Virus record (IMG/VR): IMGVR_UViG_3300042887_001148
Coordinates: 1-22,898 of that record
DNA: 22,898 bases
Reading direction: 5' to 3' (one strand)
Source: a virus
Each line of letters starts with the position of its first letter. The stretch's first letter is position 1. The notes below the pieces were generated by a model that was given only the letters and a program-made list of their open reading frames with translations, did no database searches and was not told the origin of the DNA. Shown here piece after piece: positions 11,147 through 13,355 of the stretch. A program made the position numbers and the translations under genes.

Positions 11147-11380
11147 ATGGAAGCAAAAGAGAAAGCAGAAGAATTAGTAAATTCATATAGAATTATTTTA
11201 ATGAATGAAGATACTGAATGCGGCAATGAAATCCTATGCACTTCAATCGCCAAACAATGTGCATTGATAGCAGTTCAAGAAATAATTAACGCAAATCCGC
11301 ATAGCAATCCATTTACAACTGAAGTTTATTCAACTATGTTATTTTGGCAAGAAGTTAAAAACGAAATAAACAACCTATGA
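11147..11380 (+). CDS. Conserved small helical phage protein
   Basis: A 77-residue protein starting MEAKEKAEELVNSYRIIL. The ATG at 11147 lies two bases past the previous stop; an earlier TTG is less likely. The layout is a charged N-terminal helix, a Cys-containing segment AKQCALIAVQEIINA (about 36-50), a short linker and a C-terminal helix FWQEVKNEINNL. I have seen this organisation in many Bacteroidota phage proteins of unknown function. The stop overlaps the endolysin start by ATGA, so translation of the two is probably coupled. Confidence 0.65.
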   Translation: MEAKEKAEELVNSYRIILMNEDTECGNEILCTSIAKQCALIAVQEIINANPHSNPFTTEVYSTMLFWQEVKNEINNL

Positions 11381-11799
11381 AACCCAGAGATGAAACCAAG
11401 CCCTTTGAATCACGTTTGATTGAGGAACTACACCCAACACTTGCAAACGCTTACAAGAAAGCAGAAGCGCAATTTAATTCTGCTCACAATGATGTTCACG
11501 TTATCATTGTATGCACTTACCGAAACAATGCAATGCAAGAAGTTTACTATCATAAGCGCCCGAAGATTACTAATGCTCGTGCTGGGCAGTCACCGCACAA
11601 TTATTACCCATCAAGGGCATTCGATATTGCATTTGTGAAAGTTGGTAAACGTGAACTTGATTACTCTGCAAAACATTTCAAAGAGTTTTGGGAGATGTTG
11701 CAATCGGCATCTAACAAGTTGACTTGGGGTGGTAACTTTAAATCGTTCAAAGATTTACCCCACTACGAATTAACCAACTGGAAAATGACCATCGTATGA
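11377..11799 (+). CDS. Endolysin, M15-type peptidoglycan peptidase
   Basis: This 140-residue protein shows the zinc peptidase pattern of the M15 family (VanY / phage L-alanyl-D-glutamate or D-Ala-D-Ala peptidase). CTYRNNAMQ (46-54) replaces the usual CTxRTxxEQ and is followed by QSPHNYYPSRAFDIAF (71-86), where H74 and D83 are zinc ligands, and then LTWGGNFKSFKDLPHYEL (115-132), where H129 is the third ligand. Usually the acid reads 'PHFE'; here PHYE. The enzyme would cut peptide links in host peptidoglycan at the end of infection. It has no signal peptide, so it would need the holin-like protein to reach the wall. It overlaps the genes on both sides by 4 bp. Confidence 0.87.
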   Translation: MKPRDETKPFESRLIEELHPTLANAYKKAEAQFNSAHNDVHVIIVCTYRNNAMQEVYYHKRPKITNARAGQSPHNYYPSRAFDIAFVKVGKRELDYSAKHFKEFWEMLQSASNKLTWGGNFKSFKDLPHYELTNWKMTIV

Positions 11800-12372: not shown

Positions 12373-12627
12373 ATGAATCTAAAACAAAAATACAGAAGCC
12401 CCGACAACAAGCAACTGAAGAAGATTGCAGACTATTTAATTTACGTTCTATTGCCTTTTATTCAAACATCGTTAGCACTGGCAGAAACGCAAGGATTAAT
12501 CAGTTTAAAGCAAGCATTTTGGGGTGGTTTGGCAGCTACATTTTTATTAATTAATACTAAATTCTTAACTAAATTTACAACCGAAAAACCAACCAGAACT
12601 GCGGTTATTGATGGTGATGGGTGCTAA
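12373..12627 (+). CDS. Holin-like membrane protein
   Basis: An 84-residue protein with a basic N-terminus (NLKQKYRSPDNKQLKK), two hydrophobic segments (about 19-36 and 48-61) and a charged tail. Size, topology and location between the endolysin and the spanin candidate fit a holin, which forms inner-membrane holes that release the endolysin. The pattern of an Lys-rich start, two helices and NTKFLTKFTTE resembles small holin-type proteins of Bacteroidota phages. Holins diverge too much to be certain from the sequence, and two other small membrane genes (10541 and 15701) are rivals for this role. Confidence 0.55.
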   Translation: MNLKQKYRSPDNKQLKKIADYLIYVLLPFIQTSLALAETQGLISLKQAFWGGLAATFLLINTKFLTKFTTEKPTRTAVIDGDGC

Positions 12628-12643
12628 AACAAACAATATAAAT

Positions 12644-12767
12644 AGTGAGGTGGCGGAATGGTAGACGCATGAATAAAGGTTAATAGTAAGGATAACGTGA
12701 GTAACCTCGAAAGACCCGTTAAGACTGCTCATAAGTTATCATACAAGTTCGAATCTTGTCCTCACTA
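12644..12767 (+). tRNA. tRNA-like gene with expanded 74-nt centre
   Basis: The ends form a normal tRNA top half. The 7-bp acceptor stem AGTGAGG (12644-12650) pairs with CCTCACT (12760-12766), with A as discriminator and no encoded CCA. The D-arm GCG/CGC (12653-12655/12666-12668) has GG in its loop, and the T-arm ACAAG/CTTGT (12743-12747/12755-12759) has the classic TTCGAAT loop. Between D- and T-stems are 74 nt instead of about 22-40, and no 5-bp anticodon stem with a 7-nt loop can be drawn there. CTCATAA (12728-12734) is exactly a Met/Ile2-type anticodon loop and is followed by GTTATC, which pairs with GATAAC at 12691-12696. It may be an interrupted, degenerate or novel tRNA; identity is not assigned. 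Confidence 0.55.
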
Positions 12768-12788: not shown

Positions 12789-13355
12789 ATGAAACAACAA
12801 CACCAACTTATAACCTTTGCAGTCCTATGCCTATTATTAATTATAGGTCTTAACCATTGCGCCAAAGACAACCCAAAGCCTATTCCATTTGACTACAAAT
12901 TAGAAGCGGAAATGATAAAGAAGCAGTTTGGGATTGAGCAGGCAATATTGCTGAATCAACTGGAGAATGTCAACAAAAGACTGCAGTTTGCTATTAACGC
13001 AAAAGATTCGATTAGACAACGTGAAATATCATTAACCAACACTAACATAGCTTTGATGAAAAAACTGCGTCACACATTACCAAAAGAGTGTGACACAGTA
13101 TTCGTGTTGTGTGATGAGATAATCAATGTTAAGGATAGTAGCTATGCTGCCTTGTTTAATGCCTTTCAATTGTGTGATTCGGTATCAACTATTAAGGATA
13201 GTTTAATAGTTACTTACAAAGCGGAAAACCTAACGGATTCGTTACTGTTAAAAGTAAGTAAACAAGAAACAAAGCAGCAAAGGAGAGGTAAAATAGCAGC
13301 GTGGTGTGTTGGTGGGGCTATGTTTATGCTTTGGCTTGTTGTGGGTTTGAAATAA
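12789..13355 (+). CDS. Spanin-like protein (possible unimolecular spanin)
   Basis: This 188-residue protein starts at ATG 12789 after an A-rich leader; an upstream start would overlap the tRNA-like gene. The N-terminus MKQQHQLITFAVLCLLLIIGLNHC is a signal-like segment ending in Cys24, a candidate lipoprotein cysteine. A long charged, coiled-coil-prone region follows (about 39-100), and then a second half that ends in a transmembrane segment (168-186). A lipid-anchored N-terminus plus C-terminal membrane helix is the layout of u-spanins, which join inner and outer membranes at lysis. The lipobox LNHC is poor (His before Cys), so the N-terminus might instead be a plain membrane anchor, giving an Rz-like protein. 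Confidence 0.55.
   Translation: MKQQHQLITFAVLCLLLIIGLNHCAKDNPKPIPFDYKLEAEMIKKQFGIEQAILLNQLENVNKRLQFAINAKDSIRQREISLTNTNIALMKKLRHTLPKECDTVFVLCDEIINVKDSSYAALFNAFQLCDSVSTIKDSLIVTYKAENLTDSLLLKVSKQETKQQRRGKIAAWCVGGAMFMLWLVVGLK

Follow-up and report, generated by a model that had tools for sequence, protein, structure and literature searches.

What kind of RNA is encoded by a gene that is built like a tRNA at both ends and has no anticodon arm? The question is raised by an element at positions 12644 to 12767 of a 22.9-kb IMG/VR entry (IMGVR_UViG_3300042887_001148, positions 1 to 22,898; this whole stretch of viral DNA is referred to here as the window). The window element is a member of a large class that retains the outer two thirds of a tRNA and has, in place of the code-reading part, one of many exchangeable folded RNAs. 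This class is apparently undescribed; no prior description was found in open-access PubMed Central papers, and one published elsewhere is not excluded. From comparison of the elements, we consider it reasonably probable that each specifies a tRNA-scaffolded, processed, stable and trans-acting noncoding RNA that carries a folded payload.

The window RNA retains a tRNA frame

When searched with cmscan under permissive filters, the Rfam tRNA model (RF00005) spanned 12644-12767 end to end with 38.7 bits (gathering score, 29; E value, 6e-7), a match far beyond chance. The same stretch was called neither by Rfam at default speed, with its fast filters, nor by ARAGORN run on the window. The acceptor stem, D-arm, T-arm and tertiary elbow residues of the tRNA family are present, whereas the anticodon arm of 5 bp and 7 nt is absent from the window family. 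Direct reading of the sequence agreed with the initial annotation of this locus as to the arms, their coordinates and the size of the insert, and also as to the lack of a standard anticodon arm, since no 5+7+5 arm exists at CTCATAA. The D-arm (GGTGGCGGAATGGTAGACGC) is of the Leu type, and 22 identical bases occur in the annotated tRNA-Leu of Caulobacter phage CcrBL9.

The window insert is conserved and is modeled as a pseudoknot

The same insert was recovered, nearly letter for letter, from 47 viral contigs of 4-271 kb (44 by a pattern for the insert only and 3 more by a looser pattern), and the tRNA frame around it was intact in nearly all distinct contexts. The insert also occurs in a frame that differs in sequence but has the same fold (L469), with a different acceptor pair (L492), with a degraded 5' frame half (L485) and in a frame with an extra D-loop hairpin (L490). 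In an alignment of 26 distinct elements of the window family, 99.2% of the cells in the acceptor, D-, T- and insert helices were paired, compared to 29-41% when the partners were slid. Position 4 of the acceptor covaries among the homologs (C-G in 18, G-C in 5 and A-U in 1), and in the T-stem A-U replaces G-C as a compensatory change in 6 of the 26.

Three insert helices, A, B and C, are unbroken in the alignment (Table 1). Because helix A crosses helices B and C, the 74-nt insert is modeled as a pseudoknot. The GATAAC/GTTATC stem pointed out initially is real and corresponds to helix B, but the proposed anticodon loop CTCATAA did not survive the comparison, its CTC being paired with GAG in all 26 homologs. 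Compensatory change within the insert had been suggested as a check; the pairs are never broken and include wobble changes, and most of them do not vary. The variable part of the insert follows ACCC. A closing stem AUGA/UCAU at the ends of the insert was considered and rejected, as it is broken in two contigs (L020 and L494) and competes with helix B.

Table 1. Features of the window element and of its neighbors
Feature	Coordinates	Strand	Remarks
Acceptor stem, 5' strand AGTGAGG	12644..12650	+	7/7 paired with CCTCACT; relatives mostly AGTCAGG
D-arm, GCG-GAATGGTAGA-CGC, Leu type	12653..12668	+	G18G19, A14 and A15 retained
Insert, 74 nt, putative payload	12669..12742	+	In place of tRNA positions 26-48; final base is the retained U48
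Helix A, 5' strand AGGTTA	12677..12682	+	With 12702-12707 in 26/26 homologs, one G-U change
Helix A, 3' strand TAACCT	12702..12707	+	Inside the helix B/C loop (pseudoknot)
Helix B, 5' strand GATAAC	12691..12696	+	With 12735-12740 in 26/26 distinct homologs, wobble changes at both ends
Helix B, 3' strand GTTATC	12735..12740	+	Partner of 12691-12696
Helix C, 5' strand GAG	12699..12701	+	With 12728-12730 in 26/26 homologs, invariant
Helix C, 3' strand CTC, start of CTCATAA	12728..12730	+	Partner of 12699-12701
T-arm ACAAG-TTCGAAT-CTTGT	12743..12759	+	From Rfam alignment and homologs
Acceptor stem, 3' strand CCTCACT	12760..12766	+	Pairs with AGTGAGG
Discriminator A73 and encoded C74	12767..12768	+	CCA not encoded; border as in ordinary tRNAs of related phages
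Small gene, holin-like by eye	12373..12627	+	Upstream of element; no PHROG match
Endolysin gene	11377-11799		Further upstream; PHROG match
Gene for spanin-like lipoprotein, by eye	12789..13355	+	Downstream of element; no PHROG match

An element that looks broken to tRNA finders might be a decaying tRNA pseudogene; with conservation in 47 contigs and paired stems, this explanation is hardly credible. By the test that accompanied the original suggestion of a degrading copy, in which free drift of the insert with broken stems would mark decay, the suggestion fails, since the homologs have no normal anticodon arm and their inserts do not drift with broken stems. The description as a repurposed tRNA, made at the same time, fared better, given that frame and insert are conserved in the 47 contigs and that the frame covaries.

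A large class of elements in phage contigs

Relatives with other inserts were collected by pattern-based scans, so that the counts given here are lower bounds and are biased toward the AGTCAGG frame. A pattern of D-arm, long gap and T-loop gave at least 120 matches in viral contigs, and a similar pattern was found in only 6 stretches when 84,980 genomes of bacteria and archaea were scanned. One of these, L268, is from the isolate Sphingobacterium sp. UT-1RO-CII-1, where it adjoins phage-like genes in an apparent prophage. In all, at least 237 distinct elements with at least 224 distinct inserts of 20-201 nt, mostly under 120 nt, were collected. Among the matches listed, the inserts group into about 179 sequence clusters and 175 of 237 elements have the acceptor AGTCAGG. 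The elements with inserts of 201 nt (L414) and 158 nt (L440) each have another T-arm, and both are probably tandem or fused elements.

Elements often lie among ordinary tRNAs, inside phage tRNA arrays, and a contig often has several of them; these may occur on one strand within a few kilobases of each other, as in L389, which has four in 900 bp. Many short-insert elements are called by ARAGORN as tRNAs of assorted identity. Programs that detect tRNAs either miss the elements or assign false anticodons to them, and in this way phage RNA of a widespread type may have escaped notice as "odd tRNAs." No member of the class turned up in 50,697 phage records or in 396 Bacteroidota genomes, the latter also lacking the 3' half of the frame, and a frame query linked by "N" retrieved only ordinary tRNA-Leu genes from INPHARED. 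The element-bearing viral contigs are metagenomic; with hosts inferred from the one Sphingobacterium element and from A-rich start-codon contexts, the carriers are probably uncultivated phages that infect Bacteroidota.

Several related arrangements were seen during the scans. The AGTCAGG acceptor and the ACAGG T-stem of the frame recur in tRNAs of several identities that look ordinary (L292, L415, L316, L044 and others). A second, hairpin-like insert in the D-loop accompanies replacement of the anticodon domain in L299, L329, L350 and L490, and T-arm-like hairpins lie inside the inserts of L351, L410, L463 and L030, like a piece of tRNA within a tRNA frame. In L034 and L107, which have the acceptor TCTGGGG, a 6-bp anticodon stem (loop CTGTTTA) is kept with compensatory changes and the variable arm is very long.

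The frame is maintained as RNA, and the anticodon stem is at chance level

Maintenance of the frame was assessed in an unbiased set of 138 elements chosen without a pairing requirement. The acceptor was paired at 7 of 7 positions in 112 elements, and the T-stem was fully paired in 125. Mean pairing over 40 different acceptors was 5.92 of 7, compared to 3.54 when they were re-dealt (maximum, 4.20 in 500). Position 48, which pairs with A15 in the tRNA elbow, was U in 184 of the 189 elements retrieved by scans with no requirement there. The base at -1 is U in 75% of the elements, and the RNA ends with A73 and an encoded C74, with CCA mostly not encoded. The 609 ordinary tRNAs in the same loci have the same borders (U at -1, encoded C74 and no CCA). 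RNase P-like RNAs were also noticed in the tRNA arrays of two element-bearing contigs (L055:1366-1600, minus strand, and L394:5774-6004, plus strand); these are compact and score 49.7 bits with RNaseP_bact_a (E value, 1.5e-14) and 48 bits with RNaseP_arch (E value, 2e-10), both below the Rfam cutoffs.

A canonical anticodon stem was present in 3.3% of 180 elements and in 2.4% of shuffles, that is, at chance level. This result bears on the possibility of an interrupted tRNA, whether with a very small intron, trans-spliced or permuted, that would mature into a decoding tRNA. The insert does lie at the usual location of tRNA introns, and the total excess in length is small. However, besides the missing stem, inserts of 20-23 nt are too small to hold an anticodon arm and a variable region, the window gave no match to a group I or II intron in Rfam, and there are more than 170 unrelated insert clusters; an interrupted tRNA is accordingly very improbable. 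The tiny self-spliced form envisaged in the initial annotation meets the same obstacles, and there is no segment of the insert whose excision would leave a recognizable anticodon arm. A bulge-helix-bulge intron is marked at its borders with the exons by a 4-bp helix between two 3-nt bulges, and it depends on a splicing endonuclease; the elements offer no exon anticodon stem to anchor one, the endonuclease not having been searched for.

The Leu-type D-arm, together with A73 in 105 of the 138 elements, also raises the possibility of a leucine-accepting RNA for nonribosomal use of Leu-tRNA, as LeuRS does not need the anticodon. Against this are G73 in 15 of the 138, the occurrence of the AGTCAGG acceptor in ordinary tRNAs of several identities in these phages and the diversity of structured inserts, which would be left unexplained. 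We regard this as improbable, if marginally less so than an interrupted tRNA.

The inserts of other families are also folded

When representatives of 133 insert clusters were compared to dinucleotide shuffles, their minimum free energies ranked low with nested folding (P = 4e-12) and their pseudoknot ranks also departed from chance with simple pseudoknots (P = 8e-4). In L366 and L383, both stems of an H-type pseudoknot change in a compensatory manner while the linkers GGACACC and GTTAGAAA remain constant, and crossing helices with changes were found in the pairs L111/L118, L027/L120, L365/L388 and L115/L410. Judged by these comparisons, the inserts are structured and several families are pseudoknots with compensatory changes.

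These properties of the inserts must be set against the proposal that function resides in the tRNA body. On that view the RNA would be a decoy lacking an anticodon, directed at host enzymes that either bind the tRNA elbow or attack tRNAs (anticodon nucleases and RNases), and the insert would only keep it out of translation. The frame is indeed tRNA-like in every tested detail and lacks the part that such nucleases cut, and elements sit within tRNA arrays. Yet the window-family insert is nearly invariant in 47 contigs and other families keep their insert structure by compensatory changes, which disfavors a decoy because an insert that was mere filler would drift. A decoy, which was among the initial suggestions, leaves conservation of the insert sequence unexplained, and we consider it unlikely.

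Inserts are exchanged at a fixed genomic site

In the phage group to which the window belongs, 8 sister contigs have the element flanked by the same pair of genes. At that site, 21 sister contigs have a 6-nt gap instead, so that the spanin-like gene directly follows the upstream gene in phages with the empty site. Genes for terminase and primase are also present in the window. Two contigs (L122 and L123) share the site, its 5' flank and the AGTGAGG acceptor with the window, yet their insert is unrelated, and a second element, with a short insert, follows. Inserts are therefore exchanged within one frame at one locus. Where both neighboring genes were called, both were codirectional with the element in 102 of 133 cases and neither was in 2 of 133; only 10 of 191 elements were inside an open reading frame. 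On the reverse strand of L265, at 7254 and 7942, the 5' frame half and the start of the insert are duplicated, a possible trace of frame-mediated recombination.

Exchange of this kind could mean that the element is primarily a cassette at the DNA level, its frame halves serving as sites of recombination or mobilization and any RNA function being secondary. Identical inserts in unrelated flanks, identical flanks with other inserts and clean empty sites with a short flank duplication are all in keeping with a cassette. It would not account for acceptor and T-stems that covary as RNA, for the strand bias relative to neighbors or for the tRNA-type borders, and no element-linked recombinase was seen, though no systematic search was made. 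A cassette without a primary RNA function is, in our judgment, decidedly unlikely.

Proposed function as a scaffolded noncoding RNA

With the architecture, conservation, structure and exchange of the elements established as described above, we favor the scaffolded, trans-acting RNA. The borders and fold suggest that the element is cotranscribed with phage genes (in the window, as part of a lysis-gene operon) and that host tRNA-processing enzymes excise the RNA, with RNase P acting at the 5' end, followed by 3' trimming and completion of CCA. The tRNA elbow, formed by the acceptor, the D- and T-arms and A15-U48, would stabilize the product. An independent folded RNA, in the window the 74-nt pseudoknot, would supplant the anticodon domain as the working part and act in trans, and the element would be unable to decode codons. 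In other phages the same frame has many other payloads, whose exchange between frames probably takes place by recombination in the conserved halves of roughly 25 nt. Such a multicopy, modular and horizontally shared set would most likely bind and block host factors, for example, defense proteins.

A counterdefense purpose of the payloads is a guess, offered tentatively. Slightly more tentative is the fuller picture of a modular anti-host RNA arsenal on a common tRNA frame, with hundreds of payloads, each directed against a host factor and matured by the tRNA pathway. If true, phages would have a tRNA-scaffold system of natural origin that is also an RNA counterpart of anti-defense gene islands.

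Several points weigh against the scaffolded RNA. The element is known from sequence alone, and a single-sequence fold of the window RNA is unexceptional (z = -1.2), the case for it resting on comparison across contigs. Most pairs of the window-family insert are invariant, and because this insert hardly varies, the pseudoknot is supported there by consistency rather than by covariation. Moreover, no target came to light, and several other readings were tried and rejected. Antisense control of phage genes was set aside because matches to the same locus were at chance, with longest complementary runs of 9.34 compared to 9.45 in shuffles. The antitoxins of type III toxins are pseudoknots, but a mimic of such an antitoxin (ToxI) was not upheld, as ToxN-type toxins were above the cutoff in 0 of 396 Bacteroidota genomes (CptN and TenpN types were not searched). 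A host origin of the insert was likewise rejected, its relatives in the 396 genomes amounting to two weak partial hits outside a tRNA frame. As for mimicry of rRNA, GAAAGACCC resembled domain V of 23S rRNA, but the longest run shared with or complementary to a Sphingobacterium 23S locus was 9 nt.

Comparison with known systems

In tmRNA (SsrA), the acceptor and T-arm of a tRNA are likewise kept and the anticodon domain is replaced by other RNA, including pseudoknots. No tmRNA was matched in the window by ARAGORN or Rfam, and no tag reading frame was found there. A tag frame together with pseudoknots would not fit into most inserts, which are far too short, and the body of the elements is of the Leu type, whereas that of tmRNA is of the Ala type.

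Like the elements, T4 RNA C (species 1 RNA; rnaC) is a small RNA whose gene lies in a phage tRNA cluster, and a T-arm (CCGGGTTCGAATCCCGG) is present close to its 3' end; its role is unknown (PMC3014915, PMC9697503). Its best match to a tRNA model, tRNA-Sec at 17.5 bits, is below the cutoff, and it has no GTGGCGGAAT-type D-arm. Compared by features rather than by direct alignment, it is one conserved RNA of T4-like phages and has no exchangeable inserts. We found rnaC in 714 phage records, mostly unannotated, and the relatives listed are enterobacterial T4-like phages. The fold of T4 RNA C itself (L511:2909-3047, minus strand) is much stronger than in shuffles (z = -4.8). Among natural RNAs, T4 RNA C and tmRNA come closest in kind; the elements are not tmRNAs and, by these features, probably do not belong with T4 RNA C.

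Phage-encoded small noncoding RNAs directed against host defense are represented by the RNA anti-CRISPRs, or Racrs (PMC10651486), which are a precedent for the proposed purpose but mimic CRISPR repeats and have no tRNA frame. The orphan RNA freshwater-1 (RF02979) adjoins tRNA arrays and elements (L389:1006-1067 and L280:4124-4186, plus strand; L063:8501-8562, minus strand), which suggests that freshwater-1 is a phage RNA; unlike the inserts, it lies outside the tRNA frame where inspected.

In the engineered tRNA scaffold of Ponchon and Dardel, an RNA of interest is placed at the site of the anticodon stem and is processed and protected by the cell as a tRNA (PMC3753655). That scaffold is man-made, and the elements would be its natural counterpart. 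Should the inserts act in trans, the tRNA scaffold of biotechnology is nature's own invention, and the phages possess a stock of conserved RNAs that are compact and folded. The class further provides a context in which to view a long-standing puzzle, that of stable RNAs other than tRNAs encoded among the tRNA genes of phages, such as T4 RNA C and D.
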